A DNA stretch of 64,000 nt from Lachnospiraceae bacterium MC2017. Its GTDB lineage: Bacteria > Bacillota > Clostridia > Lachnospirales > Lachnospiraceae. Position 1 is the stretch's first letter, and each line of letters starts with the position of its first letter. The stretch lies in assembly GCA_000701625.1 (NCBI GenBank), contig JNJK01000002.1:186001-250000 (forward strand). Direction: 5' to 3'. Shown here in pieces: positions 6,175 through 56,202 of the stretch. A model generated the notes under the pieces. That model was not told the origin of the DNA and ran no database searches. It worked only from the letters and a program-made list of their open reading frames with translations. The position numbers and the translations under genes were made by a program.

Positions 6175-6198
6175 TCAGTTCCTCTCTTTCAATGTCAG

Positions 6199-15177: not shown

Positions 15178-15228
15178 TATGATGTCAGGGTCAAAAGGGG
15201 CAAAATTTACTTTTGACCCTTACATCAT
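15178..15228. repeat. Palindromic interspersed repeat (TTTTGACCCT family), full copy
   Basis: ATGATGTCAGGGTCAAAAG and CTTTTGACCCTTACATCAT form an imperfect 19-bp inverted repeat around an A/T-rich centre. Related sequences occur at about 15280, 18541, 38436, 43597 and 56187. It lies between the divergent ACP and lysozyme genes. Confidence 0.75.
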
Positions 15229-15279: not shown

Positions 15280-15308
15280 TACTTTTGACCCTGTCATCAT
15301 GATATAAT
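15280..15308 (+). promoter_or_regulatory. Half-copy of the repeat that supplies the lysozyme promoter
   Basis: The repeat arm ACTTTTGACCCTGTCATCAT runs directly into TGATATAAT, an extended -10 (15300-15308). Only 7 bases separate the -10 from ATG 15316. The TTGACC in the repeat is 12 bp from the -10, too close for a standard -35. Confidence 0.5.
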
Positions 15309-15315
15309 GTATTTT

Positions 15316-16413
15316 ATGGAAAACAAACGCAATAGCCGTATCAGAAAACTTGCGATCTACTCTGTGCTTATGACGTTTACATCAGTTGTCCTGCTCATTA
15401 TTTCGCTGACACTCGTCATAAAAAATGATCATGCATTTTTTTCCGACGCCAAAGATAATAGTTCGCTCAGCTCTGTTTCTTCTAATCTTTCCGAAACAGA
15501 TACAGAATATTCACGCTTAATTACAGCAAATCAGCTTCTTACGAAGCAAAATAAGGTACTTAAAGAGACCAGCACAGGTGCTCTTTTTAAAGCCAAGCTC
15601 AAGGAGATGGCACAGGAAGGTTTTTCCACAACCCAGATCCTTAAATACTTTTTCCCGGATGAGCTGATACTTACCGATGAAGGAAGCTTTCATTTTTATG
15701 ATATAAATTATGATCTGAAACTTCACGACCATCCGGATGAGAGTTTCGTTCTAAATGACAAAGGCGAAGTCGAGTACGTAGAAAACGATGCCTCCGTAGG
15801 CATAAAGGGAATCGATATCTCCAAATATAACGGAACGATAGATTGGGAAAAGGTCGCTGCCGATGGAGTTAAATTCGCATATATACGTGCCGGTGTCCGA
15901 GGCTACAGTTCCGGCAAGATCGTCATGGATGAAACTTTTAAGTCTAACGTAGAGGGCGCTTCCGCTGCTGGCATCCAGATAGGAACCTATTTCTTTAGTC
16001 AGGCATTAAATGAAGAAGAAGCTATCGAAGAAGCTAACGCGGTTCTCGAGGTTCTTGATGGCATAAATATAACCTGTCCCATCGCTTACGACCTGGAAAA
16101 AGTCGAACACTCAGACAGTAAGCCCCGCACTAACGGACTTTCTACTGAACAGTTTACAAAAAATACTATCGCTTTCTGCAATCGCATCAGCGAGGCAGGA
16201 TACACGCCCATGATATACGGAAATATAAAGACCTACCTCATGCTCCTTGACATGACACAGCTTGAGGACTACCAAAAGTGGTTTGCAGGCTATATTTCCG
16301 ATGACTCCATTACTCCGTATTTTCCTTATGAAATGCGGATCTGGCAGTATACCTCCAAAGGAACTGTCGATGGTATCGACGGCAAATGTGATATGAATAT
16401 AGCCTTTTACTGA
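15316..16413 (+). CDS. Membrane-anchored GH25 lysozyme-like muramidase
   Basis: The protein is about 365 residues. One N-terminal membrane segment (about residues 10-33) is followed by a serine-rich coiled stalk to about residue 155, then a glycoside hydrolase family 25 domain. That domain has GIDISKYNGTIDW near its start, YIRAGVRGYSSG, AYDLEKVE with the catalytic Asp-x-Glu, and WQYTSKG near the end. Such enzymes cleave the MurNAc-GlcNAc bond of peptidoglycan outside the membrane. ATG 15316 lacks a ribosome site and may be leaderless. It is followed at 17 bp by the acetyltransferase gene, so the pair is probably co-transcribed. Confidence 0.9.
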   Translation: MENKRNSRIRKLAIYSVLMTFTSVVLLIISLTLVIKNDHAFFSDAKDNSSLSSVSSNLSETDTEYSRLITANQLLTKQNKVLKETSTGALFKAKLKEMAQEGFSTTQILKYFFPDELILTDEGSFHFYDINYDLKLHDHPDESFVLNDKGEVEYVENDASVGIKGIDISKYNGTIDWEKVAADGVKFAYIRAGVRGYSSGKIVMDETFKSNVEGASAAGIQIGTYFFSQALNEEEAIEEANAVLEVLDGINITCPIAYDLEKVEHSDSKPRTNGLSTEQFTKNTIAFCNRISEAGYTPMIYGNIKTYLMLLDMTQLEDYQKWFAGYISDDSITPYFPYEMRIWQYTSKGTVDGIDGKCDMNIAFY

Positions 16414-18469: not shown

Positions 18470-18656
18470 AGCCCTACCTCCTCTATAAACACCTATTGTT
18501 ATCCAACATAAAACTAAGCAACCTACGATCAATTTTTTTTACATTAACCCTGTCATCATAGTACCATATCCAGAATAAATAATAGCATTTTTATTCAAAC
18601 ATTATATATTTCCAATGAATATGTGTTCGGTTTTTGTGTTCAAATCCTTTTTCTCA

Positions 18657-18690: not shown

Positions 18691-20364
18691 ATGACTAACG
18701 AACACTCATCCGACAATTTCACAGCTATCCGGATTGTCAGAGGTTATCAGGACGAAGCTCTGCCTATTCGAAAAGATCGCCCGGAGCGGGTAAAGATCCC
18801 ACTTCCCGAAAAACTCCAGTGGATGAAGGATATCGCAAAGGAAGTCCATACATTTCCGAAACCAGACAGCTGGTACTTTTATAAACAGGCTCAGTTTGCT
18901 GCTGACTACACGGATGACTTTGAGTATAACGGTATGTTCCGGAGATATTTCCCTACATACAGGGACATGAAGGACGATGAACTTCGCGGATATTTTTCCT
19001 TTAGGACAAGATTTCGCGAGGGGCGATATGACGCAGAACCGCAGTTATCCTTTGTATATGTATATATTTATGAAATCCTGAACGGTATCGGTGTCAGCCC
19101 GGAATCCGGTTTTGAAATCTTAAAAACAATAGATACGCTATATGGTTCTAAAGACGATACTCTCAGAGAATATCTCCGACGATGGATCAGGGATTATATC
19201 ATCTATTATAACCTTGATCATTCTTATGCAGCAGAATATTTCAGTGTGGATATGGACTCTGCCGTGTCGATCCTTATGCAGGCTTTTTCTGATGCTGAAA
19301 CTAAATTTTTAGTGCTCATTGGCGAAAAAGATGCCGCTGAAACAGATTCAGCTCCTAATCCGATCAGTGATAATGATATGTTTCAGGCTGTTTGCACCAT
19401 GTCATCCTATGCGATAGAAAAGTCACCTTTATACAAAAAAGATCCGGAACTTGTAAAATCTGCCATAGTTGAAATGCTTAAAGAATTATCATGCGTTGCT
19501 AAGCGGCTCAATCGTGACTCATTATTTGAATATTGCTTTGGCCGTCGTGGTGTTTTTCCCATAAGCCTCTTTAAGAATGCAGTATTTCACGACCATCTGA
19601 AACATGAGGATCATCTCTACGAAATAAGTCCTCTGTGTCTTTACCGATGCGAAAACGGACGATGGTCCCGCGAAGCCTACAGCCGTTCCTCCGAAAAAAG
19701 CAAGACTCTCGGAGATCTCTGTCATGAGACAGATCGTTTACTCCGTGAAAAAACCGGATTCGGACATTCGATCAAGCGACGCCTTATGAGTGACGCATTT
19801 TCCGAAGAGATAAGCTGGGTAATAGATAAGCTCTTACTCGAACGAGAAAAAGCCTCCCGCCCACGTATTGATATAGATCTGTCCGTACTTGATTCCATCC
19901 GTATGGATGCCGCCAAAACCAGAGATTCTCTGCTTGTTCCTGAGGATAAGGAAGATCATACTGATATGTTGCTTGATGGAAATTTTCATTCCGAAAGTTT
20001 ACATAAATCAGAGAAACTTGATTTCTCTGTCTCAGATTCAATGTCGAAAATTCCAGGCATTGACATTGATCCTGTTGAAACTATCCCTTCACATAAGACA
20101 GAGCTTGATTTACATAACTCTACAACTACTCATGATCTTCCGCTAACCGACGATGAATTTTTTTTACTTAATTCACTTTTACATGGTTTGCCATGGAAGG
20201 AGTATGCCGCTGAACATCATCTGATGATAAGCATGATCTGCGATGATATAAACGAAAAAATGATTGATCTCATCGGTGATACGATAGTCGAATTTAACGG
20301 AGATGAGCCGGAACTTATCGAAGACTATATCTCAGAATTACAGGAACTGATCCCTGAAAACTGA
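18691..20364 (+). CDS. TerB_N/TerB_C domain protein, first component of a Shango-type defence system
   Basis: The product is about 557 residues and cytoplasmic. Residues about 55-250 match TerB_N: WYFYKQAQF, then YFPTYRDMKDDELRGYFSFR, then YIYEILNGIG. The last 150 residues match TerB_C, ending INEKMIDLIGDTIVEFNG plus a DY-containing acidic tail. A TerB-domain protein, an ATPase and a DEAD/DEAH helicase together define the Shango anti-phage system (Millman et al. 2022). The ATPase follows 67 bp downstream, but the helicase is 6.3 kb away. ATG 18691 follows AAAGGCGG. Earlier in-frame ATGs fall on or before the promoter. Biochemical role within the system is unknown. Confidence 0.85.
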   Translation: MTNEHSSDNFTAIRIVRGYQDEALPIRKDRPERVKIPLPEKLQWMKDIAKEVHTFPKPDSWYFYKQAQFAADYTDDFEYNGMFRRYFPTYRDMKDDELRGYFSFRTRFREGRYDAEPQLSFVYVYIYEILNGIGVSPESGFEILKTIDTLYGSKDDTLREYLRRWIRDYIIYYNLDHSYAAEYFSVDMDSAVSILMQAFSDAETKFLVLIGEKDAAETDSAPNPISDNDMFQAVCTMSSYAIEKSPLYKKDPELVKSAIVEMLKELSCVAKRLNRDSLFEYCFGRRGVFPISLFKNAVFHDHLKHEDHLYEISPLCLYRCENGRWSREAYSRSSEKSKTLGDLCHETDRLLREKTGFGHSIKRRLMSDAFSEEISWVIDKLLLEREKASRPRIDIDLSVLDSIRMDAAKTRDSLLVPEDKEDHTDMLLDGNFHSESLHKSEKLDFSVSDSMSKIPGIDIDPVETIPSHKTELDLHNSTTTHDLPLTDDEFFLLNSLLHGLPWKEYAAEHHLMISMICDDINEKMIDLIGDTIVEFNGDEPELIEDYISELQELIPEN

Positions 20365-20431
20365 TTCCGGTTATATTTCTGTTTACATAATTTTGAATTT
20401 ATCTCTAGTTTCATTATGGAGGTTTTTATAA

Positions 20432-21772
20432 ATGGAAATCAGAAAAAAGGTGCCGAAAAGAATTGCCGGTACTCTAATAAATTCGTTAAAGGGCGGTGTT
20501 GTACCCCGTATAGGTCTCCCCTATGTAACAGTCGGGAGAACTGCGGAAATACAGGCTCTTTTGCATGATGTTGATGTTATAAGCGACGGCGGAGCATCCT
20601 TCCGTTTCATAGCAGGCCGTTACGGAAGTGGAAAGAGCTTTCTACTTCAGACTATCCGAAACTATGTGATGGACCGAGGCTTTGTCGTAGTCGATGCTGA
20701 TCTCTCTCCCGAAAGGAGACTCCAGGGAACACGTGGGCAGGGACTCGCAACCTATCGTGAGCTTCTCCGAAATATGTCCACAAAGACACGCCCGGAAGGC
20801 GGTGCGCTAACTCTCATCCTCGACCGATGGATCAGCGCCGTACAGGCTGAAACTCTTCAGGAAAACGAAATGACACCGGATGATCCCACACTTTCTTCTG
20901 CCGTAGAAAAGAAGATCCTGCAGGTAATCTATTCCATGAACGAACTGGTTCACGGTTTCGACTTTGCCCGTCTCCTCACCATGTATTATCAGTCCTATGT
21001 AACGGGTGACGAAGAGACAAAAGGAAAGGTCATCAAGTGGTTTCGAGGAGAATATAATACAAAAACAGAAGCCAGACAGGAGCTTGGTGTCACCATTATC
21101 ATTACTGACGACGACTGGTATGAATACTTAAAACTCTTTGCCTGGTTTCTAAAAAAAGCCGGCTACAGCGGAATGATGATAATGATCGACGAACTGGTAA
21201 ATATCTATAAGATACCAAACTCGATCACCCGCCAGTATAACTATGAAAAAATACTTACGATGTACAATGATACATTGCAGGGAAAAGCACAATATCTCGG
21301 CATTATCATGTGCGGAACTCCCCAGTGTATCGAAGACAGAAGACGCGGTGTTTACAGCTATGAAGCTCTCCGTTCCCGTTTGCAGGAGGGCAAATTTTCA
21401 GTTGAAGGTGCACGAGATATGCTTGCCCCTGTTATCCGCTTAGACGCGCTCACAGCGGAAGAAATGCTGGTTCTTGTTGGAAAACTCGCCGATATACATG
21501 CCGATCTCTATGGATATGAAAACAACATTTCAGATGAATCACTTGCCGATTTCATAAAGATCGAGTTTGGACGTATCGGTGCCGACTCCAAGATCACACC
21601 GAGAGAAGTGATCCGTGATTTTATAGAGCTCCTCGACATCCTCTACCAGCACCCGGATCAGAGTATTGAGAGCATCCTGTCATCCGATGAATTTAGCTAT
21701 GCTAAAAGCCTCGAACCAGGTGACGGACCTTTAAGTGGTGCTACCGATCAATTTGCAGAATTTACGATCTAA
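20432..21772 (+). CDS. BrxD-like (DUF2791) P-loop ATPase, second component of a Shango-type system
   Basis: A 446-residue ATP-binding protein of the DUF2791/BREX BrxD-like family. The Walker A motif is AGRYGSGKS (about residues 61-69), Walker B is MMIMIDE (about 248-254), and a sensor-like IIMCGTP follows. TRGQGLATYRELLRN is typical of the family. TATGGAGG precedes the start. It is the second gene of the transcription unit begun by the TerB gene and ends at a convergent terminator, so the distant helicase must be transcribed separately. Confidence 0.88.
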   Translation: MEIRKKVPKRIAGTLINSLKGGVVPRIGLPYVTVGRTAEIQALLHDVDVISDGGASFRFIAGRYGSGKSFLLQTIRNYVMDRGFVVVDADLSPERRLQGTRGQGLATYRELLRNMSTKTRPEGGALTLILDRWISAVQAETLQENEMTPDDPTLSSAVEKKILQVIYSMNELVHGFDFARLLTMYYQSYVTGDEETKGKVIKWFRGEYNTKTEARQELGVTIIITDDDWYEYLKLFAWFLKKAGYSGMMIMIDELVNIYKIPNSITRQYNYEKILTMYNDTLQGKAQYLGIIMCGTPQCIEDRRRGVYSYEALRSRLQEGKFSVEGARDMLAPVIRLDALTAEEMLVLVGKLADIHADLYGYENNISDESLADFIKIEFGRIGADSKITPREVIRDFIELLDILYQHPDQSIESILSSDEFSYAKSLEPGDGPLSGATDQFAEFTI

Positions 21773-21786
21773 TACTATAACAAACG

Positions 21787-21833
21787 TCAAAGGACTTTGA
21801 TACATTTCGCGTACCAAAGTCCTTTGATTGTTC
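21787..21833. terminator. Convergent bidirectional terminator
   Basis: TCAAAGGACTTTG (21787-21799) and CAAAGTCCTTTGA (21815-21827) form a perfect 13-bp stem between the ATPase and the Nif3-like gene. It marks the left edge of the esterase cassette. Confidence 0.8.
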
Positions 21834-22689
21834 AACTATAGGAATATATTTCTTCAACCCTAACATAATGCACCGGAACCTCCTCCGGTACGAGTTCGCG
21901 GATCCATTCTGCCGCGTACTCCATCCCAGGCTCCTCAAGGCTGAAGTGACCTACATTAAAGCAGGCTTTACCTCTGCCAAGCCTTGCAGAATCACGGATA
22001 TATGACAGCAAATTCCACTCGATTATCTCTCCGGGAATTACTGCATCATATCCACCATGTTCAAGTTCTTTTATGATAGCTGTCGCATAGTCGCGGTAAT
22101 TACCGTTTTCATCTTCTCTTTCTGCTCCAAAGATCCCCGGACAGAGATGAGCTATTATAGCAACCTTATGTACCTTATCTTCGAGATTACCAATAAATCT
22201 GAGTCCCTTCAGATTAAACTTATCCGTAAGAAAACGTCCCATCTCCCCAACTGTCATTTCCGGTATCTCAAACGGAAAAAACATAGGTACATCTACATCC
22301 TCTATCATATATTTTTCCCACCCAAGCCTCTTTATGACTCCGGTAAAAATGCTGTCAGGCTTATGCGCATGCATATGGTCATGATCACGCCATATGGTTA
22401 TACCATATTTTTCAATGAGCTTTTTCTTCTCATTAACAGTCACATTTTCAAAATCCGTATGCCAGTCCGTATAGTCCGGTGTCATATAAAAAGTAGGTTC
22501 ATGAACTATGAGCAGATTGGCTCCGAGTTCCGCTGTCTTCTCAATCGCATCTATGGTCGGCACGATAGCAGTAACTATTCCTGTACACTCGTCAGACGGG
22601 TTACCGGCCTTAAAACCGTCACATGTTACGCTCTCATCGATTCTCGGATGATAAGCCTTTATTCTATCTATAATTTCCTGATGTGTCAT
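21832..22689 (-). CDS. Nif3-like dinuclear metal-centre protein
   Basis: A 285-residue member of the NIF3/YqfO (DUF34) family, whose biochemical role is still unclear. Visible family features are TAIVPTIDAIEKTAELGANLLIVHEP near residue 40-65 (HEP in place of the usual HHP), a metal-binding DHDHMHAH stretch, and GEIIEWNLLSY near the C-terminus. It is the last gene of the cassette, 10 bp after the esterase at 22700. Its position suggests a stress or metal-linked accessory role. Nothing in the sequence proves that. Confidence 0.82.
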   Translation of the reverse strand: MTHQEIIDRIKAYHPRIDESVTCDGFKAGNPSDECTGIVTAIVPTIDAIEKTAELGANLLIVHEPTFYMTPDYTDWHTDFENVTVNEKKKLIEKYGITIWRDHDHMHAHKPDSIFTGVIKRLGWEKYMIEDVDVPMFFPFEIPEMTVGEMGRFLTDKFNLKGLRFIGNLEDKVHKVAIIAHLCPGIFGAEREDENGNYRDYATAIIKELEHGGYDAVIPGEIIEWNLLSYIRDSARLGRGKACFNVGHFSLEEPGMEYAAEWIRELVPEEVPVHYVRVEEIYSYS

Positions 22690-22699
22690 TTATAAAACC

Positions 22700-23509
22700 T
22701 CAAAACCCCAATATCAGCCTGTCCTTCGTTTTCTCCTCGATCCCTGAAAGAAAAGAAAATGCCTTGTCTGTCATTCTTTCCCAAACATCAAATTCGTGAT
22801 TGCCTGTTGTCTCGGCAAAAACATGATAAATATCATTTTCCGAAAGCATGCTGTCAAATCTCTTTACTGCTTCAAATACAAGTCCATCACCATTACCGCA
22901 GGTGATAAAAAGCTCCGGCATATTTTTATCTGCCTTATGCCTCGGATACTCACTGAAAAGGTTGCGCTCGCTTCCGAGGAACTCCTCATCCGATCCAAAA
23001 TAGCTTTTATAAACTTCCGGTCTAAAACCTATCTCCGGAAAACTGCACAGGAGATGCTTCGGATCCACAGCAGGAGAAAAAGCAGCGATCTTTGAAAAAA
23101 TATCTCTGTATTTAAGTCCGTTATAAAGAGCTCCATATCCTCCCATTGAAATTCCGGCTATATATGTATCTTCCCTGTTTTTTGACAGAGGAAGTATCTT
23201 TCTTGTTTCTTCTATAAGTTCTTTCCCGATAAATTGCGAGAAATTCTCGTTTCTCTCCGGATGGTCTATGTAAAATGAGTTGCAGCCATCAACGAGGATG
23301 ATCGCCATTCCCTTTAATTCACACTGCTTTCTGAGATTCATATAAGTCAGTATCCCGGCTGCATCAAGGCTGTATCCCGGCAGGAAGTAGCAGGTCCTGA
23401 AAGGAGCCTCCCACTGTACTCCGCTGACACCATCAGTCGGCAGAAATGCCTTTATCTCAACATTTCTATATAATGACTTAGATGAAAATTCCATTGTTAA
23501 ATATGCCAT
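22700..23509 (-). CDS. CE1/esterase D-type esterase (first of three)
   Basis: An alpha/beta hydrolase of about 269 residues without signal peptide. The nucleophile elbow is AGISMGGYGALYNG and the catalytic His lies in TTGNHEFDVWE. The start MAYLTMEFSS and overall pattern match acetylesterase/feruloyl esterase-like proteins of carbohydrate esterase family 1. ATG 23509 follows AGGGGG; a longer ATG at 23542 would overlap the AraC gene. With two other esterases and a GPH symporter it probably strips acyl groups from imported oligosaccharides. Confidence 0.87.
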   Translation of the reverse strand: MAYLTMEFSSKSLYRNVEIKAFLPTDGVSGVQWEAPFRTCYFLPGYSLDAAGILTYMNLRKQCELKGMAIILVDGCNSFYIDHPERNENFSQFIGKELIEETRKILPLSKNREDTYIAGISMGGYGALYNGLKYRDIFSKIAAFSPAVDPKHLLCSFPEIGFRPEVYKSYFGSDEEFLGSERNLFSEYPRHKADKNMPELFITCGNGDGLVFEAVKRFDSMLSENDIYHVFAETTGNHEFDVWERMTDKAFSFLSGIEEKTKDRLILGF

Positions 23510-23517
23510 AATACCCC

Positions 23518-24468
23518 CTACTTCATTCCGTTCTTTACCCATACAGAGGGTGTACAGCCAAACGATCTATGAAACGCATTAATGAATGATTTTACGTTAG
23601 AAAATCCATTTTTCATCGCGCAGTCGAGAAGTTTTTCTTCCGGATTTCGTCTAAGCATCTCCACGCTATGAGACAGCCGGATATTTTGCAGGTAGTCATG
23701 GAAGTTGCTGCCTACATGTCCCCTGAAAGATCTGGATAAGTGTGCAGAGGAATAATTGAATACCTCCGCAACCTGCGACAGAGTGATATTTTCCGAATAA
23801 TGCTCCTCTATATAATTAAGCACATCCTTTACCGCTGCCTCTGACTTACCTCTTTTTGATGCATTCTTTTCCTCGGAAATACAGCTAACATTTATGATCT
23901 GTAAAAACCTGAATAACAACTCCATTTTTTTTAGTTTTATGGCTGTACTGCTGTTGTCACCCCAAAAAGCCAGATCCTCCGGTGTTAAATCCGCACTGTG
24001 TTCCAGATTCCACCTAACATGTTCTGCGCTTTTATCGGTACCACTCTTTGAACCGTTGCTCAGATTTTTATTCTTCTCCAGCTCACCGAATTCAAGCATG
24101 AGTTCTCTGACTCTCTCATAGTCCTCGCTAGCTTTCTCAGGAGCTTCCAGCCAGACATCCTTACCGAGCCAGTTATCAAGAAAACTCTTTGATATTTGAA
24201 CCGTCACACCCTTAAAAATATCTGTTTTTTTGTAAAAATGATCCGAATGGATAACTGTTGAATTGATCACATTCCACTCGTCAGCAACTTTTATGACCTG
24301 CTTCCCATCAACATAACTCATAACCCTTCCATCTGTGACAAGGTTAAATTCTATGTTTCTGTGCCAATGAAGGGGCGTATAGATATTTTCTCCTTCAAAA
24401 TCATGTACATAAATCTTGATGGGTACCTGGTTATTTTCAAACTTCTCAACCTGATATAAAGCTGTCAT
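23518..24468 (-). CDS. AraC-family transcriptional regulator
   Basis: A 316-residue regulator. The N-terminal cupin sensing domain has HWHRNIEFNLVTDG. The C-terminal double helix-turn-helix has NITLSQVAEVFNYSSAHLSRSFR and GFSNVKSFINAFHRSFGCTPSVW. It lies in the middle of the esterase operon and is the obvious regulator of it. The long inverted repeat at 27916-27966, upstream of the operon promoter, is a plausible operator. Confidence 0.92.
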   Translation of the reverse strand: MTALYQVEKFENNQVPIKIYVHDFEGENIYTPLHWHRNIEFNLVTDGRVMSYVDGKQVIKVADEWNVINSTVIHSDHFYKKTDIFKGVTVQISKSFLDNWLGKDVWLEAPEKASEDYERVRELMLEFGELEKNKNLSNGSKSGTDKSAEHVRWNLEHSADLTPEDLAFWGDNSSTAIKLKKMELLFRFLQIINVSCISEEKNASKRGKSEAAVKDVLNYIEEHYSENITLSQVAEVFNYSSAHLSRSFRGHVGSNFHDYLQNIRLSHSVEMLRRNPEEKLLDCAMKNGFSNVKSFINAFHRSFGCTPSVWVKNGMK

Positions 24469-24479
24469 TCATATATCCC

Positions 24480-25598
24480 TTACTTAAAAATCAACTGCGC
24501 AAAATCCCTGATGCACATCCGCCATGTATTCCAGTCATGAGTACCCTTATAAATCTTTCGTACTTCACTTATGCCGCTTTTTTCGACGATCTCATTATCT
24601 TTCTCAAAATATTCGAGGAAGGGATCCTCATCCCCGATCGCTCTGAAAAATACCCGAAATACATCCTTATCCTGTAATTCTTCCAGGAAATTCAGATGAC
24701 TATCGTCACTCGGAGCCCGATCTACCATATCAAGCTCTGATGCCTGTATCCAGTCATGAAGAAATCCACTGAAAATTCCCAGTGACGAAAATAGTTCCGG
24801 ATGCGTAAAACCGCTTATAGCTGTCTGCAGTGATCCCATTGAAAGGCCTGCCATAGCACGCATTTCCCGAGAACCACCGGCTCTGTACCGGGACTCAACA
24901 AACGGGATCACGTCATTTAATAAAAATTCATCAAAAGCCCGGAAATCCACCAGTTTCCTACCTTCACTACGTACCTGAACCATTCCGCAATTCATCACGA
25001 CCACAAACGGCCTACATTTCTTTTCTGCAATGAGGTTATCAAGGATCACCGGAAGTTTGCCTGTAGTGCACCATCCCACCTCATTTTCTCCATGTCCATG
25101 CTGGAGATAGAGCACCGGATACAGTCTGTCACTGCTGTCATATCCATAAGGTGTATAAACAAGACATCTCTCCCATTCATCCGTAATAGATGACCGAAAA
25201 TACTCTATTCCTACTCGCCCCTGAGGAACGTCCTGCCTTGTATAAAACGCCTCATCTTTATCTGGAAGTTCAATATAATTACACGGTCTTGAATATCCAT
25301 ATCCGATTGGCAGATACGGTGACAAAAGTTCAGCCCCGTCAATCTTTAGAAGGATATAGTTTACGCCGCTCTGAAAAGGCAGCTCTGCCTGCCACACACC
25401 TGCATCATTCATAACACAGTCAATTTCCTGGTCCGCATATGCAAAAGATACACTCTTTGCCTGAGGCGCATAAAAATTCAGACACCATTTCCCATTAAGC
25501 ATTACCACCGGTTCCGGCATCCCCTCAGGCAAAAGAACCGGATCATTTGATAGAAACTGCTCTGTATTTAATTCCTTATGATCCATCCGCGATTTCAC
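24480..25598 (-). CDS. Two-domain esterase: N-terminal E-set/CBM48-like domain plus CE1 domain
   Basis: The product is 372 residues. Residues about 15-100 look like an E-set/CBM48-like beta sandwich (FYAPQAKSVSFAYAD and VWQAELP), as in intracellular CE1 enzymes. Residues 115-372 form an esterase with YLQHGHGENEVGW, the nucleophile elbow MAGLSMGSLQTA, and a catalytic His in GTHDWNTWR. No signal peptide is present. It overlaps the next upstream esterase by 4 bp (ATGA), so the two are translationally coupled. Confidence 0.87.
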   Translation of the reverse strand: MKSRMDHKELNTEQFLSNDPVLLPEGMPEPVVMLNGKWCLNFYAPQAKSVSFAYADQEIDCVMNDAGVWQAELPFQSGVNYILLKIDGAELLSPYLPIGYGYSRPCNYIELPDKDEAFYTRQDVPQGRVGIEYFRSSITDEWERCLVYTPYGYDSSDRLYPVLYLQHGHGENEVGWCTTGKLPVILDNLIAEKKCRPFVVVMNCGMVQVRSEGRKLVDFRAFDEFLLNDVIPFVESRYRAGGSREMRAMAGLSMGSLQTAISGFTHPELFSSLGIFSGFLHDWIQASELDMVDRAPSDDSHLNFLEELQDKDVFRVFFRAIGDEDPFLEYFEKDNEIVEKSGISEVRKIYKGTHDWNTWRMCIRDFAQLIFK

Positions 25599-26404
25599 CT
25601 CTGTCCGATCTTTTCAAGAATGTATTCCATACCATTAAAAATATATTTATTCCAGAAATTCCAGTCATGTATTCCAGGGCCTTCTTCGTACTTGAAATCC
25701 GCCTTTTCCTCTGTAAGGAACTTACGCATGATCTGATTTTCGTTATAAAGGAAATCCTCTGTTCCGATCGCCATATATATCTCCGGGATATTTCTTCCCT
25801 CGTTTACGAGCTTCTTATAAAGAACCTCCGGATTCTTATCTGACTCGGGAAGCGTCTCTAATTCACCAAATACCTCGCGATAATACTCATAATTTGCCAG
25901 GTCATCGCTGTCTCCGGGCTTCATTTTTGAGATCGTATGTATTATCAGTGCAGAAGACAGCGCAACCACTCCTCCAAATGTATCCGGATACGCAAGAGCT
26001 GTATGAAGCGCTCCAAATCCACCCATGGAAAGTCCACCGATCAGCGTATCCTCGCGTCTTTCGGATAAACCAAATACTTTTCTCGTATACTCAACGATTT
26101 CCTTACCTGTATAATTCTCATACTGACAACCGGTAGCTTTTCTATTGAGATAGAAGTTGTTGCCTGCAGTTATCATGATCACTGCAAGATTATATTTAAG
26201 TGCCAGATCCTCTGCTGCTCCGTTATATTCCCAGTCGCTGTGATTTCCTGTAACACCATGAAGAAGATATAAAGTCTTCATAGGTCTTGAGAAATGTGGA
26301 TTTCCTGCCGTAAGGACTTCCGGATAATCATTCGGGATAACGTATGTAAACTCAACCTGTCCATTCTGACATATCGAATAGAAACGCATTGTACCTGTTG
26401 CCAT
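25595..26404 (-). CDS. CE1/esterase D-type esterase (third of three)
   Basis: An esterase of about 269 residues with LYLLHGVTGNHSDW, the elbow IGGLSMGGFGALHTA, and HDWNFWNKY at the C-terminus with the catalytic His. It is cytoplasmic by sequence and similar in length to the esterase at 22700. ATG 26404 follows AAAGGAAG. The in-frame ATG at 26428 overlaps the symporter gene. Acetyl-xylan or feruloyl esterase activity is an inference from family and neighbours. Confidence 0.87.
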   Translation of the reverse strand: MATGTMRFYSICQNGQVEFTYVIPNDYPEVLTAGNPHFSRPMKTLYLLHGVTGNHSDWEYNGAAEDLALKYNLAVIMITAGNNFYLNRKATGCQYENYTGKEIVEYTRKVFGLSERREDTLIGGLSMGGFGALHTALAYPDTFGGVVALSSALIIHTISKMKPGDSDDLANYEYYREVFGELETLPESDKNPEVLYKKLVNEGRNIPEIYMAIGTEDFLYNENQIMRKFLTEEKADFKYEEGPGIHDWNFWNKYIFNGMEYILEKIGQR

Positions 26405-26424
26405 TTTTTTCTTCCTTTCTTTTG

Positions 26425-27831
26425 TCACGTCCTTGCTGTCTCTGCAGCAAGTGCTTCAACCTCAGTCTGCTCTACATCCTCCTTCTCTGCAGCCCGTCTT
26501 CTGATCTCGAGTTCTGCACGGATTTCCGGATATTTCTGATCGAGGTGATAGAAAACATTTATCACTGCTACACTTAGCATCAGTATTACCGGCAATCCTA
26601 TATAGCAAAATTCGATAGCTCTGCATGCAGATGCTGTCTGCTCAGCCGCACCGCCTACATATCCACCTGCATTAAGTATTGCAGTGATAAGGAGAGATAC
26701 CAGTGAATTTGCGATCTTTATGCTAAATCCGATGAATGCCATAAGGAATCCCTGTATCCTGACTCCATTTTTCCATTCACCATAGTCAACTGCCTCTGCG
26801 CACATTACATAAATGATACCATTTATAAATGCCAGACCTACTGATGCGATCACTGAAAATACTATTACTAAAACTACATTGTTCTTTCCGACAAGGGTTC
26901 CAAGAGAACCAACAACTGATAAAACAGCTCCGGTGCATACCAGATTTCTCTTTCCGATTTTTGATGCGATAAAAGGAATAGTCAGTGTGATCGGAATTCC
27001 TATGATATTTGATATAGAAAGAAGAGTTGATGCTATTCCTGAATTTTTCAGAACATTTGCCGCAAAATACACTGTCGTAGTTGATTTTATTACTACCACT
27101 GCGATAGTAAACAGTGAAGTAAGTGCGCAGATGATCCACGGACCGTTCTTCATAGCCTTAAGCATATCCACAGCTGTTACTTTCTGACCTGCCTCGGTAT
27201 TCATACGCTCTCTCGTATTCAGTCCATCGATCATGATAAGAACCGCACCAACGATACCGAAAACAGTGGCAACTATTCCATATCCCATATATTCATTACC
27301 ATTACCAAGAACCTTTATGAGACTCAGAGCAAATGCCGCAACTGCCAGCTGCCCGAAATTTGTTCCAAGGCTTCCGCACATATTTACACCAAGACGATCC
27401 TTTGAATCATCTGTCATGGCTGTGAGAAGAACATTCTGCGGGATGAGAACTGCTGTATAGGCTAATGTATAAAGGACATAAGTCACAAGAGCATATATGT
27501 ACTTTGTCGTACTATCTGCACTCGGTATATGAAACATAAAAAAGCAGATCACTGCCATTGGTATCGCACCAAACAGAATATAGGGTCTGCATTTTCCAAA
27601 TCGGCTCTTTGTATTGTCAACGATCACCCCCATAAGAACATCTGAGATAGCGTCCGCAATACCTCCGACCATCATGATGGTTCCTACCTGAATAAGTCCA
27701 AGCTTTATCACATCCGTGTAGAAATACATCATAAATGTTGAAACAATAGTTGTTGCCAGGCAGATTCCCATATTGCCCGACCCATAGCTTATTTTTTCTA
27801 AAAGTGACATTTTATTACTTTTTGTACCCAT
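26425..27831 (-). CDS. GPH-family sugar:cation symporter
   Basis: A 468-residue membrane protein of the glycoside-pentoside-hexuronide:cation symporter family (XynP/UidB/LacS type). The start EKISYGSGNMG is diagnostic, and GGIADAISDVLMGVIVDNTKSRFGK is the conserved loop between segments 2 and 3. About 12 membrane segments can be counted. ATG 27831 follows GGAGGT. It is the first gene of the cassette and would import the oligosaccharides on which the esterases act. Confidence 0.92.
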   Translation of the reverse strand: MGTKSNKMSLLEKISYGSGNMGICLATTIVSTFMMYFYTDVIKLGLIQVGTIMMVGGIADAISDVLMGVIVDNTKSRFGKCRPYILFGAIPMAVICFFMFHIPSADSTTKYIYALVTYVLYTLAYTAVLIPQNVLLTAMTDDSKDRLGVNMCGSLGTNFGQLAVAAFALSLIKVLGNGNEYMGYGIVATVFGIVGAVLIMIDGLNTRERMNTEAGQKVTAVDMLKAMKNGPWIICALTSLFTIAVVVIKSTTTVYFAANVLKNSGIASTLLSISNIIGIPITLTIPFIASKIGKRNLVCTGAVLSVVGSLGTLVGKNNVVLVIVFSVIASVGLAFINGIIYVMCAEAVDYGEWKNGVRIQGFLMAFIGFSIKIANSLVSLLITAILNAGGYVGGAAEQTASACRAIEFCYIGLPVILMLSVAVINVFYHLDQKYPEIRAELEIRRRAAEKEDVEQTEVEALAAETART

Positions 27832-27863
27832 AAAAGACCTCCAGACGATATATGTCATTTACG

Positions 27864-27891
27864 GGTATATTATGCGGTTTTTGCATGTCAA
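27864..27891 (-). promoter_or_regulatory. Promoter of the symporter-esterase operon
   Basis: On the minus strand a perfect TTGACA (27891-27886), 16 bases, then TATACC (27869-27864). It lies about 35 bp before the symporter start. Confidence 0.75.
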
Positions 27892-27915
27892 TCTCTTTCC
27901 TTTTATGATCATCCG

Positions 27916-27966
27916 CATTGTCATTTTTTGATATTTCAGTTTTTACCATATCAAAAAACGACATTG
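27916..27966. promoter_or_regulatory. Long near-perfect inverted repeat, candidate AraC operator
   Basis: Two 19-bp arms (27916-27934 and 27948-27966) match at 17 positions around a 13-bp spacer. The inner 11 bp (TTTTTTGATAT) are perfect. The element lies 25-75 bp upstream of the -35 of the esterase operon and 88 bp before the helicase start, so it could control both divergent units. Confidence 0.6.
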
Positions 27967-28054
27967 TTTTCTATCCTTGCTTTACAGAACCTAAGTCAGT
28001 AGACTTGAAATATATAGTTAGCCGCTTTGCACATCATTTTGACCGGGAGGTTCT

Positions 28055-30391
28055 ATGAATATTTTTAATAGATATGCTCCTTTTATACAGGATTTCATAT
28101 ATGAACATGAGTGGGAAAACCTGCGTGCTATTCAGGTTGCGGCGGGCGATGCCATCTTTAATACCGATGACAATGTGCTGCTATCTGCGTCTACTGCATC
28201 CGGAAAGACTGAGGCTGCGTTTTTTCCTATTCTCACGCTTTTTTCAGAGGAACCGCCATCTTCCATCGGTGCTATTTATATTGGTCCACTGAAAGCCTTG
28301 ATAAATGACCAGTTCGGACGACTTCTGGAACTCTGTGAAGAGGCTGAGATTCCTGTTTGGCACTGGCATGGTGATGTTTCACAATCTCATAAAAGCAAAA
28401 TGCTGAAAAATCCTTCGGGGATCTTACAGATCACGCCGGAGTCTCTGGAAGCTCTGATGCTGCATAAACACGCCATCATCCCCAAGCTTTTCGGTGATCT
28501 GCGTTTTATTGTAATTGATGAAGTTCATTCCCTCATGCGCGGCGATCGAGGCGGCCAGACCATATGCCTTATCGAACGTCTTGCACGAATGGCAGGTGTA
28601 AATCCACGCCGTATTGGTCTATCCGCGACTATAGGTGATCCCGAGATGACCGGTAAGTTCCTTGCATCCGGTACAGGACGCGGAACCGTGATCCCTGTGA
28701 TCGAAAGCAAGGGGCAGACCTGGCGTATTTCCATGGAACATTTTTATGTATCCGGTCCTCAGGCAACTGATCCTGTCAGAAAAAATACAACTTTCAATGA
28801 TGAAAATATCATTGATGTGGATGTTATTAATCACGTGAGTCCGGAAAGCGACAACGTAAATATTCCTCTTCCGGTTCTTGAACAGGCGTCTGACAGCGCG
28901 CCTCTCGCCGCTGATCCGGGAATCGGATATATTTTTGAACATACACGAGGCAAAAAATGTCTTGTTTTCTGCAATTCCAGAGAGGATGCGGAAGCAGTGA
29001 CCACTACTCTCCGCCAGTACTGTGAGGCAAAGCACGAACCTGACAGGTTTCTTATCCATCACGGAAATCTTTCTGCTTCCTACCGCCAGTCTGCTGAAGA
29101 ACTGATGAAGGATGAAGATACTTATCTTACTACTGTTACGACTTCTACTCTGGAGCTTGGTATCGACATCGGACGGCTCGAAAGAGCTTTTCAGATAGAT
29201 GCGCCGTTTACGGTTTCTTCTTTTTTGCAGCGTATGGGACGTACCGGACGAAGAGATCTTCCGCCTGAAATGTGGTTTGTGATGCGTGAGGATCCGCCGG
29301 AGCCTCGCGCCATGCTTCCTGAGTGTATCCCGTGGAAACTTTTACAGGGTATCGCCCTTATACAGGTTTATCTGGAGGAAAAATGGGTGGAACCTCCGCG
29401 CCTCGACAGACTTCCGTACAGTCTTCTTTATCACCAGACTATGAGCACTCTTGCGTCCGGCGGAGAGATGACGCCTGTCGAGCTGGCTTCTCGCGTGTTA
29501 TCTCTCAGCGTTTTTTACAGGGTAAGTCAGGATGATTTTCGTGTGCTCCTGCGTCACCTTTTGGAGACTGATCATATACAGTGGACAGAGAGACAGGGGC
29601 TTATCGTGGGTCTTACCGGCGAGCGGATCACGAATAATTTTAAGTTTTATGCAGTTTTTCAGGAGAATGAAGAATATAAAGTCAGATGTGAGTCCCAGGA
29701 ACTCGGCACTATCGTTATGCCGCCTCCTGCAGGTGAAAAAATCGCCATTGCCGGTCATGTGTGGGTTGTGACTGAAGTTGATCACAAACGTCACGAAGTT
29801 TATTGCGAGCTTATCAAAGGCAATGTTCCGGCCTACTTTGGCGAGTGCCCGGGTGATATTAATACTCATATTTTGGAGCGTATGAAAGCAGTTCTGTCTG
29901 AGGACAGGTTTTATCCTTATCTCATGCAGAATGCCACTGCACGCCTTTCTTCTGCCCGCAATGCGGTCCGTGCTTCGGGAATTTTACAGAATCCGCTTAT
30001 TTCTCTTGGCGGAAATATGTGGGCTCTTTTCCCATGGCTTGGTACTTATGCTTTTCTTGCTCTGGAGCGTTTCCTGCGTCTTCGATGTGGTCAGCTCCTC
30101 GCCATGAAGGGTTTTGATGCTTCGCGCCCATATTTTATTCAGTTTACTATGAAAGCAAGCCGCAATGATTTTTTTGATATTGTGACTCAGGCTGCTGATA
30201 TGCCGCTTGATCCTATGGATCTGCTTTTTCCGAATGAGGTTCCGGTTTTTGAGAAGTATGATGATTTTCTGCCGAAGGAGCTTGTAAGGAAGGGGTTTGC
30301 ATATGGTGTTCTCGATATCGAGGGGATGCTGATGCGTGTACGCGAGTGGAAGGTTTTTGCTACTTCGGGACGAATTGAAGCGCGGGAGTGA
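28055..30391 (+). CDS. Lhr-like DEVH-box helicase, third component of a Shango-type system
   Basis: A 778-residue superfamily 2 helicase. Walker A is SASTASGKTEA (about residues 44-54), motif II is IDEVHSL (about 154-160), motif III is LSATIGD, and motif VI is RMGRTGRR. About 300 residues after the motor are Lhr-like. TerB protein, DUF2791 ATPase and such a helicase are the three Shango components. Here the helicase is separated from the other two by the opposite-strand cassette. GGGAGG precedes the start. The ABC exporter begins 56 bp downstream, so the two may share a transcript. Confidence 0.9.
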   Translation: MNIFNRYAPFIQDFIYEHEWENLRAIQVAAGDAIFNTDDNVLLSASTASGKTEAAFFPILTLFSEEPPSSIGAIYIGPLKALINDQFGRLLELCEEAEIPVWHWHGDVSQSHKSKMLKNPSGILQITPESLEALMLHKHAIIPKLFGDLRFIVIDEVHSLMRGDRGGQTICLIERLARMAGVNPRRIGLSATIGDPEMTGKFLASGTGRGTVIPVIESKGQTWRISMEHFYVSGPQATDPVRKNTTFNDENIIDVDVINHVSPESDNVNIPLPVLEQASDSAPLAADPGIGYIFEHTRGKKCLVFCNSREDAEAVTTTLRQYCEAKHEPDRFLIHHGNLSASYRQSAEELMKDEDTYLTTVTTSTLELGIDIGRLERAFQIDAPFTVSSFLQRMGRTGRRDLPPEMWFVMREDPPEPRAMLPECIPWKLLQGIALIQVYLEEKWVEPPRLDRLPYSLLYHQTMSTLASGGEMTPVELASRVLSLSVFYRVSQDDFRVLLRHLLETDHIQWTERQGLIVGLTGERITNNFKFYAVFQENEEYKVRCESQELGTIVMPPPAGEKIAIAGHVWVVTEVDHKRHEVYCELIKGNVPAYFGECPGDINTHILERMKAVLSEDRFYPYLMQNATARLSSARNAVRASGILQNPLISLGGNMWALFPWLGTYAFLALERFLRLRCGQLLAMKGFDASRPYFIQFTMKASRNDFFDIVTQAADMPLDPMDLLFPNEVPVFEKYDDFLPKELVRKGFAYGVLDIEGMLMRVREWKVFATSGRIEARE

Positions 30392-30447
30392 TTTGTGACA
30401 TAGTGACGGACGCCCGCAGGGGCAGTAACATAGAAATGAGGTGCATC

Positions 30448-32205
30448 GTGAAAACTGTTTTGACATTTTTAAGAAATTACAAAAAAGAATCTATCCTGTC
30501 ACCGACCTTCAAACTGATGGAATCGCTGATGGATCTGATCACTCCGCTTGTTGTTGCGGCTATCATTAATAAAGGCATTGTTAACGCGGATTTTACTTAT
30601 GTTATACAGTGCTTTTTCTTTTTAATCCTTCTCGCTGCGTTAGGTCTCGGATTTTCTTTTACCGCACAGTGGTTTGCGGCTAAAGCCAGTGTCGGAGTCG
30701 CGACAGAACTTAGGCAGACACTTTTTGATCATATCCAGAGTTTATCCTGCTCAGAGCTCGATACTCTCGGCACAGACACGCTGATCACACGTATGACAAG
30801 TGACGTAAATCAGGTGCAGAACGGTGTTAATATGACGCTCCGACTGCTCCTCCGAAGCCCGTTTATCGTGTTTGGCGCCATGATCATGGCCTTTACTATC
30901 GACTTTAGATGTGCGCTGATCTTTGCAGTGATCATACCTATCCTGAGCGTGGTGGTCTACGGGATCATGCTCATGAGCATACCGCTTTTTTCAAAGGTTC
31001 AGTCTTCGCTTGATGCACTTCTCGGAACAACCCGTGAAAACCTCACCGGCGTGCGTGTTGTCAGAGCTTTCTGCAAGGAAAAGGAGTCAATAGACGAATT
31101 TGACCGTCAAAGCGAAGCTCTTACAAAGATGAACGAATTTGTCGGAAGGCTTTCTGCTCTGATGAATCCTGCAACCTATGCGTTGATCAATATCGCAACC
31201 ATTTTTCTGATCCGTGAGGGTGCTATTCGCGTAAATATCGGCGGAATAGCCCAGGGAGATCTGGTAGCACTTTATAACTACATGGCTCAGATCATAGTCG
31301 AGCTTATAAAGCTTGCCTCTCTCATCATCACTATAAATAAAGCGCTTGCCTGTGCTAAACGAGTAGAAAACGTTCTCGATGTAAAACCCGGAATGACATA
31401 TCCTGATTCCATTTTAACGGAGAGCGACAGTGATATCGAAGTAGAATTCCGCAATGTTTCGTTTTCATATGCTGGTTCGGATGAAGATGCCATTACGGAT
31501 ATCAGCTTTTCTGTAAAGAAAGGTCAGACCGTTGGTATCATCGGCGGAACCGGTAGCGGTAAATCTACCGTAGTTAATCTGATCCCAAGGTTTTACGATG
31601 CAACATCCGGTCAGGTATTGGTGAACGGTCAGGATGTAAAGACTTATACGGAAGGTTCTCTCATAAAACAGGTTGGAGTTGTCCCTCAGAAAGCAGTTCT
31701 TTTTGAAGGCACGATCCGCGACAATATGCTTTGGGGAAATGAAGATGCTACTGATGAAGATATCTGGAACGCCCTCGAAACTGCGCAGGGACGTGAAGTT
31801 GTCGAAGGTAAAGACAATAAGCTCGATGAAAGGGTAAGTCAGGGCGGACGAAATTTCTCCGGCGGTCAAAAACAGCGGCTGACTATCGCCCGGGCGCTTG
31901 TACGAAAGCCGGAAATACTGATCCTCGATGACTCTGCAAGTGCACTCGATTTCGCAACAGATCTGAAACTCCGTCGTGCCATTGCAGGACTTGATGGAAA
32001 TATGACCGTATTTATCGTCTCGCAGCGAGCATCCAGTGTACGTGCTGCAGATATGATACTTGTCCTTGATGACGGAAAGATAGCCGGACACGGAACTCAT
32101 GATGAATTGTTGGAATCATGTGAAGTTTATCAGGAAATCTACTATTCTCAGGCTCCTGAAGAACGAAAGAACAAAACAGTAAACAGGAAGGAGGCACTGG
32201 CATGA
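30448..32205 (+). CDS. Heterodimeric ABC exporter, subunit with degenerate Walker B
   Basis: A 585-residue half-transporter: six membrane segments, then a nucleotide-binding domain with IIGGTGSGKST, FSGGQKQRL and ILILDDSAS. The catalytic Glu after Walker B is Asp (LDDSAS), as in the non-catalytic partner of heterodimeric multidrug exporters (BmrC type). Start GTG 30448 is favoured by GAGGT five bases upstream; an ATG at 30436 includes that ribosome site. It overlaps the partner gene by 4 bp. Confidence 0.93.
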   Translation: MKTVLTFLRNYKKESILSPTFKLMESLMDLITPLVVAAIINKGIVNADFTYVIQCFFFLILLAALGLGFSFTAQWFAAKASVGVATELRQTLFDHIQSLSCSELDTLGTDTLITRMTSDVNQVQNGVNMTLRLLLRSPFIVFGAMIMAFTIDFRCALIFAVIIPILSVVVYGIMLMSIPLFSKVQSSLDALLGTTRENLTGVRVVRAFCKEKESIDEFDRQSEALTKMNEFVGRLSALMNPATYALINIATIFLIREGAIRVNIGGIAQGDLVALYNYMAQIIVELIKLASLIITINKALACAKRVENVLDVKPGMTYPDSILTESDSDIEVEFRNVSFSYAGSDEDAITDISFSVKKGQTVGIIGGTGSGKSTVVNLIPRFYDATSGQVLVNGQDVKTYTEGSLIKQVGVVPQKAVLFEGTIRDNMLWGNEDATDEDIWNALETAQGREVVEGKDNKLDERVSQGGRNFSGGQKQRLTIARALVRKPEILILDDSASALDFATDLKLRRAIAGLDGNMTVFIVSQRASSVRAADMILVLDDGKIAGHGTHDELLESCEVYQEIYYSQAPEERKNKTVNRKEALA

Positions 32206-33956
32206 AAACAGATAGTAATAGCAAAAGCAACAGCTGTGATACTCTTTTCAAAGTAATGAAGGTCATTGGAAATTATAAGATACTTCTTGCGCTAAGCATC
32301 ATCCTTGCCGGTATTTCCGTAGTCCTTCAGCTCTATGTTCCTATTCTTTTTGGTAAAGCAATAGATCAGATAATCGCAAAGGGCAAGGTTGATTTTAATG
32401 CCGTGTCACAGTACGCTTCACAGATACTGGTACTGATACTTATCGCATCACTTGCTACATGGTTCATGAATCTCATTAATAACCGCCTGACATACAGAAC
32501 TGTACAGGATATCCGTGCAAAAGCCATACGTCAGCTTCAGGTACTTCCGCTCAGTTATCTTGATTCTCACAGTAACGGAGACATTGTACAGAGAGTTATC
32601 GCCGACGTAGATCAGCTGTCCGACGGTCTGCTGCTTGGGTTTACACAGCTTTTTTCCGGAATTGTCACGATAGCAGTCACTTTGATATTTATGTTTTCAA
32701 AGAATGTTCTGATAACTGCTATGATCATTGTAATGACTCCTCTGAGCTTCCTTGTAGCGAAGTTCATTGCCTCAAGGTCATTTCACATGTTCAAAAAACA
32801 GACTGAGACCCGGGGAACACAAACTGCTCTCATTAATGAGCTCATAGGTAACGAGAAAATAGTTAAGGCTTTTGGCTATGAAAAACGAGCCTCTGAACGG
32901 TTCAGTACGATCAACGAAGAACTCCGTGATTATTCACAGAAAGCAGTTTTCTTCAGTTCTCTTACAAACCCGTCCACACGTGCCGTAAATAATGTGATCT
33001 ATGCTCTGGTAGCTCTATTTGGAGCAAACAGGATTTTAAGCGGTGCTTTGACAGTGGGTGACCTTACGGTTCTCCTTTCCTACGCGAACCAGTATATGAA
33101 ACCTTTTAACGACATCAGCTCAGTCATTACAGAGCTTCAGAATGCTCTTGCCTGCGCTGCCCGTGTATTTGAACTCATAGAAGCTGAACCTCAGACTCCT
33201 GATGCCGAAAATGCACTGCTCCCATATAGAGGTCTGGTAGATATAGAAAATGTAGATTTCTCATATGTTCCTGAAAAACCGCTTATCGAAAATTTTAATT
33301 TCCATGCTGAACCCGGAATGAAGATCGCGATTGTCGGACCCACAGGATGCGGAAAAACTACATTTATAAATCTCCTTATGAGATTTTATGATGTAAATCG
33401 CGGTTCCATAAAGATAGATGGACAGGATATAAACGATGTAACACGTGCTTCTCTCCGTCAGAACTTCGGAATGGTCCTTCAGGAAACCTGGCTAAAAAAC
33501 GGTACTGTCCGTGAGAATATCGCTTTTGGAAAGCCGGATGCTACTGACGAAGAGATCATACAGGCTGCAAAAGAAGCCCACAGTTGGGAATTTATCAGAC
33601 GTATGCCGCATAAGCTCGACACTGTTCTTACCGATGACAGTCTAAGTCAGGGGCAGAAGCAGCTCTTATGCATCACCCGTGTCATGCTCTGCGATCCCTC
33701 AATGCTAATTCTCGATGAGGCAACGTCAAGCATCGATACAAGAACAGAAGCTCTTATCCAGAAGGCTTTTGATAAGCTCATGAAAGGCAGGACAAGTTTT
33801 GTCGTGGCTCACCGTTTAAGCACAATCCGTGACGCAGATCAGATACTCGTAATGAAAGACGGTCACATCATCGAACAGGGTGATCACGACTCACTTTTAC
33901 AGAAAAACGGGTTCTACGCAGAACTCTACAGATCACAGTTTGCACCCAGTACTTGA
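32202..33956 (+). CDS. Heterodimeric ABC exporter, catalytic subunit
   Basis: A 584-residue half-transporter with membrane domain, Walker A IVGPTGCGKTT, signature LSQGQKQ and Walker B LILDEATSS with the normal catalytic Glu. The altered signature (LSQGQ) pairs with the degenerate Walker B of the partner, and its own Walker site pairs with the partner's intact signature. This leaves one competent and one degenerate ATP site, as in BmrCD-type exporters. The substrate is unknown; the family exports drugs, lipids or peptides. Confidence 0.93.
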   Translation: MKTDSNSKSNSCDTLFKVMKVIGNYKILLALSIILAGISVVLQLYVPILFGKAIDQIIAKGKVDFNAVSQYASQILVLILIASLATWFMNLINNRLTYRTVQDIRAKAIRQLQVLPLSYLDSHSNGDIVQRVIADVDQLSDGLLLGFTQLFSGIVTIAVTLIFMFSKNVLITAMIIVMTPLSFLVAKFIASRSFHMFKKQTETRGTQTALINELIGNEKIVKAFGYEKRASERFSTINEELRDYSQKAVFFSSLTNPSTRAVNNVIYALVALFGANRILSGALTVGDLTVLLSYANQYMKPFNDISSVITELQNALACAARVFELIEAEPQTPDAENALLPYRGLVDIENVDFSYVPEKPLIENFNFHAEPGMKIAIVGPTGCGKTTFINLLMRFYDVNRGSIKIDGQDINDVTRASLRQNFGMVLQETWLKNGTVRENIAFGKPDATDEEIIQAAKEAHSWEFIRRMPHKLDTVLTDDSLSQGQKQLLCITRVMLCDPSMLILDEATSSIDTRTEALIQKAFDKLMKGRTSFVVAHRLSTIRDADQILVMKDGHIIEQGDHDSLLQKNGFYAELYRSQFAPST

Positions 33957-38399: not shown

Positions 38400-38478
38400 A
38401 ATTGCGAAAGCTTCATCAGAAGCGAAGCAATTCATGTCATTAGTAAGGGGCAAAAGGACTTTTGACCCTTTCATCATT
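38400..38478. repeat. Composite interspersed palindromic repeat
   Basis: The first part (38400-38432) is a nested hairpin: AATTGC, GCTTC, an ATCA loop, GAAGC, GCAATT. The second part (38446-38478) has AAGGGGCAAAAG / CTTTTGACCCTT. The first part recurs at 43706-43739 and 56167-56187, and the second at 15178, 15280 and 43597. It lies between convergent genes. Confidence 0.75.
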
Positions 38479-53530: not shown

Positions 53531-53571
53531 GACCTTGGTCAATATTTTTATGATGAAAGGATCAAATAAAT

Positions 53572-56159: not shown

Positions 56160-56202
56160 TGTTATGACACGAATTGCTTCGCTTCTGACCCTGTCATAAT
56201 CA
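56160..56202. repeat. Interspersed repeat copy between ptsH and ptsI
   Basis: GAATTGCTTCGCTTCTGACC is the reverse complement of the GAAGCGAAGCAATTC core at 38418-38433, fused to CTGTCATAATCAT of the other repeat type. ATGAC and GTCAT close it as a short palindrome. Confidence 0.6.

Follow-up and report, generated by a model that had tools for sequence, protein, structure and literature searches.

Can a phage defence system that is normally encoded in a single operon be kept as a set once its helicase gene has been parted from its companions? Shango has been described as a three-gene operon for a TerB-like protein, an ATPase and a helicase, with modest activity against many phages (PMC10250203). 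The question is raised by a stretch of 64,000 nucleotides, hereafter the window, which lies inside a 325-kb contig of the draft genome of Lachnospiraceae bacterium MC2017 (56 contigs). An earlier note, made from the sequence alone, had claimed that the window holds all three Shango components, with a 6-kb cassette on the opposite strand separating the helicase from the first two genes. It had suggested profile searches with TerB_N, TerB_C, DUF2791 and the Shango models, and named the lack of any Shango match as the outcome that would speak against it; all of these profiles matched. The first gene, sngA (18691..20364, plus strand, translated from the ATG at 18691), encodes a protein of 557 amino acids whose best PADLOC match is the Shango SngA (241 bits, E 1.1e-71, model positions 68-526 of 528), with the Pfam domains TerB_N (E 8.9e-21) and TerB_C (E 2e-16). 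The second, sngB (20432..21772, plus strand), encodes a BrxD-like ATPase of 446 amino acids that matches the Shango SngB best (646 bits, E 1e-194, vs 171 bits, E 1.5e-50, for BrxD) and also Pfam BrxC_BrxD (PF10923, E 4.6e-173). The product of sngC (28055..30391, plus strand) is a DEAD/DEVH helicase of superfamily 2 (SF2) with 778 amino acids and the Pfam domains DEAD and Helicase_C; its best PADLOC match, the Shango SngC (916 bits, E 4.8e-276, positions 5-714 of 720), exceeds BrxHI/II at 398 bits and supports its assignment to Shango rather than to another helicase family. The strings GRYGSGKS and MIMIDEL (both in SngB), ASTASGKTE, DEVH, SAT and QRMGRTGR were found across SngB and SngC. We take them to be Walker and helicase motifs, and on this point as well the claim that the checkable catalytic motifs are intact was borne out.

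Compared with the SngABC systems of P. aeruginosa PA14 and E. coli, the window has the same kinds of protein (TerB-like, ATPase, DEAD/DEAH helicase) in the same order, but it differs in the 6.3 kb of opposite-strand metabolic genes lying between sngB and sngC. The gap measures 6,282 base pairs (bp) and is filled by six minus-strand genes, whereas two annotated plasmid loci, from Paenibacillus and Aeromonas, have the same three genes adjacent. SngA, SngB and SngC are thus all present while their adjacency in a single operon is not, and the locus consists of Shango components in a split layout with no canonical Shango operon. One published list gives Shango with PF05099 (PMC10952713). The SngA of the window differs from that listing in having TerB_N and TerB_C and no match to PF05099 (TerB) at E ≤ 0.1; none of 10 other SngA proteins matched it at E ≤ 0.05. 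The ATPase and the helicase also have homologs in bacteriophage exclusion (BREX) type 2, although the Shango models score far higher: the NCBIfam BrxD model NF033438 reached 173 bits against a cut-off of 350, and no further BREX component was present among the matches listed for the ten scanned proteins (the best 25 of 64 for SngC), those proteins being all that the scan covered. A BREX type 2 locus, with BrxD at cut-off and other core genes nearby, was therefore not what we found.

To place the split in time, we turned to 48 genomes of the genus, including that of the window (G000). SngB was present in nine of them (E ≤ 1e-3) and SngC in nine (E ≤ 1e-60), with both in seven. In five of these seven (G030, G032, G023, G027 and G020) sngC follows sngB within 500 bp and shares its strand; in the window genome and G001 it does not. 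SngB was found alone in G040 and G047, whose contigs both stop before SngC could follow, and SngC alone in G017, as a fragment, and in G039, both at contig ends. Of the genomes of the genus, 22 have a completeness of at least 90% and a contamination of no more than 5%, and within these SngB and SngC are confined to the same four. The nearest of the five unbroken genomes, G030 (SngB 90%), keeps sngABC intact with only 21 bp between sngB and sngC, and its sngC adjoins, convergently, the same ATP-binding cassette (ABC) transporter pair that follows sngC in the window. The whole six-gene cassette sits on another contig of G030, beside a gene read as a glycoside hydrolase, and its GPH-family symporter (E ≤ 1e-150) occurs in four of the 48 genomes only: those of the window, G001, G047 and G030. 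Because G030 has both an intact operon and the cassette elsewhere, and because the symporter is restricted to these four genomes, the comparison identifies the cassette as an independent unit and the split as a derived state. The relative with an unbroken order that the earlier note had called for is thus available. Of the two explanations it had offered, the unbroken operon of G030, the shared ABC neighbour (in the other orientation) and the different contig of the cassette favour the first, in which the cassette was inserted into an intact operon; separate regulation of sngC is likely a consequence of the split.

From sngA to the far end of the cassette, the window, G001 and G047 are collinear, with the junction between sngB and the cassette conserved at 86-89% DNA identity, and for this reason the junction would most simply have arisen once, before the three diverged. 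The other side of the cassette tells a different story. In the window sngC keeps its original strand, whereas in G001 it is inverted and its start codon overlaps the stop codon of a LysR gene, for which the other genomes of the genus have only two relatives at E ≤ 1e-60, in G026 and G029 (58-59% identity). Homology between the window and G001 ends at the start codon of sngC, and the two copies of the gene differ at 7.5% of bases. Since the orientation of the ABC pair relative to sngC differs between G030 and the window, at least one rearrangement must have taken place besides the arrival of the cassette. This locus is a hot spot of rearrangement.

The split genes have intact reading frames and are under purifying selection. 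In a pairwise Nei-Gojobori comparison of the window with G001, made with our own script, the ratio of non-synonymous to synonymous divergence (dN/dS) was 0.118 for sngA, 0.024 for sngB and 0.015 for sngC, with synonymous divergence (dS) between 0.42 and 0.61. Values for comparison were 0.038-0.111 in the cassette genes, 0.034-0.045 in the ABC pair and 0.034 in an fprA-like gene (labelled by eye). As the dS of sngC, 0.42, falls inside the range of 0.41-0.65 shown by sngA, sngB and the cassette genes, sngC was not recently imported into the lineage of the window or of G001 alone; the ABC pair has a lower dS (0.18-0.27) and the fprA-like gene a higher one (0.79). The split is common to the window and G001, so most of their divergence probably accumulated in the split state. 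The genome of the window holds one SngC (E ≤ 1e-60) and one TerB_N protein (E ≤ 1e-3), and no second copy of either that could replace the split partners was found in it at those thresholds.

How unusual is this layout? We analyzed the SngB loci of the best 80 of 537 confirmed relatives; 77 of these loci were evaluable, the contig ending less than 1 kb from sngB in the other three (L072, L075 and L113). In 71 of the 77, SngC was encoded on the strand of sngB and no more than 500 bp from it, so that the adjacency which the earlier note had ascribed to the described systems holds as a strong rule, though one with exceptions. The six loci that do not fit are those of G001 (L043) and G047 (L044, 6.2 kb and then the contig end), L071 (3.25 kb), L101 (2.46 kb), L122 (0.8 kb) and L073, where no SngC was found within 10 kb of SngB. 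A second draw, which overlaps the first (G295 is L073), covered 397 genomes of the family with SngB at E ≤ 1e-150 and SngC at E ≤ 1e-60. All 39 genomes with SngB also had SngC, within 500 bp and on the same strand in 36, the exceptions being the window genome, G344 (8.4 kb) and G295 (another contig); the one additional genome with SngC, G116, has an adjoining SngB-like frame of 63% identity. The gap in G344 (L136 8434-16444) contains two same-strand genes beside sngB and then four opposite-strand genes, for a pyridoxal-phosphate enzyme, a D-serine-dehydratase-like enzyme, a GntP permease and a flavoprotein; this D-serine-type catabolic cassette gives a geometry similar to that of the window, and the SngA, SngB and SngC of G344 match PADLOC models across most of each model. 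In G295 (L134/L135), sngB is followed by an opposite-strand gene read as AraC and then by a binding protein and permeases of sugar-ABC type; its SngA combines YjbR with TerB_C but shows no TerB_N, and the other contig carries a complete sngC. The window locus is therefore a genuine known system in an uncommon layout that arose more than once. Two other arrangements came to light in these surveys: at L071 3783-6813, sngB and sngC enclose a same-strand restriction module of EcoRI type (PF02963, E 5.3e-151) that comes with two N6/N4 methylases, and at L118 13752-15506 sngA lies downstream of sngC and convergent with it.

We also compared the distance matrices of SngB and SngC across 56 hand-chosen genomes, including the two distant plasmid loci. 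The matrices correlated at r 0.94, and at r 0.84 without the plasmid loci, with none of 1000 permutations as high in either case. In the reduced set of 54, the correlations of individual profiles were 0.81 for the window genome, 0.81 for G001 and 0.83 for G344, near the median of 0.79, and on this ground the split sngC genes of these three look co-inherited with sngB; G295 is less clear. The lowest value of all, -0.05, is that of G023, a genome with adjacent sngB and sngC.

The window thus carries a complete set of Shango genes, and taken together these results make it probable that the cassette ended up between sngB and sngC in a once-intact operon of the ancestor of the window, G001 and G047, and that the set was kept, assembling in trans. 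Several observations weigh against this. The final residues of SngC are replaced in G001, where the gene is also flipped, which points to an unstable locus. In G047, whose assembly is 75% complete, no SngC reaches E ≤ 1e-60 and the contig stops at the cassette, so that the gene may have been lost there. The profile correlation of G295 is only 0.56, the tenth lowest of 54. Each of the sngC-side junctions is known from a single draft assembly, and the dN/dS argument uses a pairwise estimate and assumes that the split is older than the divergence of the window and G001; recombination may also have acted at the locus, as dS varies along it from the ABC pair to the fprA-like gene.

A different order of events, in which sngC was translocated away when the cassette was already in place and nothing was inserted into the operon, is a less likely account that still deserves some weight, given that sngC moved again in G001 and lies on another contig in G295. 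In the window, however, sngC retains the strand of sngAB and the ABC neighbour it has in G030, for which a single insertion is simpler, and the turned ABC pair demands a further rearrangement under insertion and translocation alike. The split could also have broken the defence, leaving SngC repurposed (for instance for repair, sharing an operon with the ABC transporter or the LysR gene) and SngAB as a decaying relic. The changes of neighbours and orientation around sngC between close relatives, a dN/dS in sngA about five times that of sngB, and the missing SngC of G047 would agree with this. We nevertheless think it improbable, as the constraint on sngB matches that on the fprA-like and araC genes (0.024 vs 0.034 and 0.038), sngA is divergent also between the window and the intact operon of G030 (59% identity), SngB and SngC accompany each other across the genomes searched, the few exceptions lying at contig ends, and SngC scores so much better as Shango than as BrxHI/II.

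The opposite strands of sngC in the window and G001, the end of homology at its start codon and the break of the G047 contig near the sngC-side point led us to consider an invertible segment acting as a phase-variable on/off switch. We dropped this idea as very unlikely: the flanks of sngC in the window are not joined by any inverted repeat whose exact core reaches 9 bp (in G001 a single one of 10 bp joins them), the flanks differ in content, with the LysR gene in G001, a 7.5% difference between the copies is not that of strain-level switching, and no recombinase was noticed by eye among the open reading frames of the window and the G001 locus. An assembly artefact, which a draft in 56 contigs might invite, is hardly credible, since two other assemblies show the same junction of sngB with the cassette, the window is interior to a long contig, and neither those inverted repeats nor direct repeats of at least 8 bp between the two ends of the cassette were found. 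The lack of such direct repeats, together with the fact that no transposase or integrase was noticed by eye in the translations of the frames flanking the junctions, also led us to set aside a mobile element as the means by which the cassette arrived.

All six genes of the cassette lie on the minus strand. They encode a DUF34/NIF3 protein (21832..22689; PF01784, E 6.9e-17), a putative esterase (22700..23542; PF00756, E 7.9e-13), an AraC-family regulator (23518..24468; PF12833, E 5.3e-19), an esterase (24480..25598; PF00756, E 2.9e-20) with a partial match to a xylanase/feruloyl-esterase model (NF041944, E 4.1e-53; 181 bits, under the cut-off of 1200), another putative esterase (25595..26428; PF00756, E 1.7e-15) and the GPH-family sugar:cation symporter (26425..27858; TIGR00792, 330 bits for a cut-off of 231; PF13347). 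Judging from these families, the cassette may import and de-esterify plant-fibre oligosaccharides. At the tail-to-tail junction of sngB and the cassette lies an 18-bp hairpin (21787..21827) with a fold of -25.5 kcal/mol (z -6.3) on the plus strand and -29.6 on the minus strand, none of 200 shuffles being as stable on either; a similar inverted repeat can be read by eye at the same junction in G001 and G047. The earlier note had sngAB end at a strong terminator here. A stable hairpin on that strand there is, but it is not clearly a terminator for sngAB: the scan reports a T-rich tail for the minus strand alone, and the hairpin is for that reason best read as the terminator of the cassette, perhaps a bidirectional one. 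The claim that the helicase begins 6.3 kb further on with its own leader fits the length of the gap and the divergent intergenic region (27859..28054), a new leader for sngC that contains an AT-rich hairpin (about 27916-27966; -14.3 kcal/mol, z -6.2). Directly 3′ of sngC, the ABC pair (30436..33956, plus strand) was identified by profile scan for its first gene and by open reading frame and synteny for its second; we do not propose it as a member of the defence system.

Repeats occur around several of these loci. A dispersed repeat, TTTTGACCCTGTCATCAT, has seven sites in the window with up to 3 mismatches (0.06 expected), at 15179-15196 (minus strand), 15211-15228, 15283-15300, 18542-18559, 38460-38477, 53550-53567 (minus strand) and 56183-56200, and 99 sites genome-wide with up to 2 mismatches, compared with 1 for the reversed control. 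By eye, it bounds longer elements of about 170-200 bp beside the rearranged junctions of G001 (L027, about 2815-2990 and 15756-15950), and a fragment resembling this element adjoins genes of G047 that read by eye as an oligopeptide transporter and lie between the fprA-like gene and sngA (L028, 9371-15013). As an agent of the rearrangements it was rejected, as the window has no copy with up to 3 mismatches where sngC meets its neighbours; upstream of sngA there is one degenerate copy. In G020 (L034, about 5780-6230 and 6940-7280), repeat-like runs (ATGAAAGCAAGGGAAG...) stand between sngB and sngC, and the SngC protein itself contains a repeated insert that is GKPGHEGSADTA-like. Upstream of sngA, at 18616-18629, there is a LexA-like site, TGAATATGTGTTCG, identical in the window, G001 and G047 and present in G030 as the variant CGAATATCTGTTCG (two changes); none with up to 4 mismatches was found in the 250 bp upstream of the sngC of the window. 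Taking GAACN4GTTC as the LexA consensus, one-mismatch sites number 19 in the window against 22.7 expected, and lexA promoters show, by eye, CGAAC rather than CGAAT half-sites. We therefore did not adopt SOS control of sngA and regard it as a lead only.

We propose that, after the six-gene esterase/symporter cassette was placed between sngB and sngC in the common ancestor of the window species, G001 and G047, SngA and SngB were probably still made from the sngA promoter, and SngC probably from a separate leader in the window or from behind the LysR gene in G001, the three proteins probably being kept as a set that assembles in trans. Within this set, the BrxD-like ATPase SngB would load or license SngC, an SF2 helicase acting on nucleic acid, with SngA as a TerB-domain partner, and the split set would continue to act in phage defence. 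Separate control of the helicase could even be an adaptation, for example one that limits toxicity. More tentatively, SngC may be a separable module that has parted from the Shango operon several times (in the lineage of the window and G001, in G344 and in G295), each time with metabolic genes beside sngB and with re-wired regulation, selection keeping the trans-acting set; we regard this as possible, without leaning on it.

Split defence systems are already a recognised category, flagged by PANORAMA (PMC13379101), the main text of which makes no mention of Shango; what is documented here is an intact relative, the other location of the cassette and selection after the split. No description of a split Shango locus was recognised among the literature matches listed, in a search with subscription journals largely outside its scope. 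PADLOC uses synteny rules for multi-gene defence systems (PMC9252829), and since detection tools work in this manner split systems can be missed. That the separated genes are intact and under selection suggests that the parts of Shango can work without sitting side by side. With the intact operon of G030 and two species that carry the split set with sngC in two different contexts, the locus offers a natural experiment by which one may test whether the helicase has to be co-expressed for Shango to work, and whether its action is in trans.

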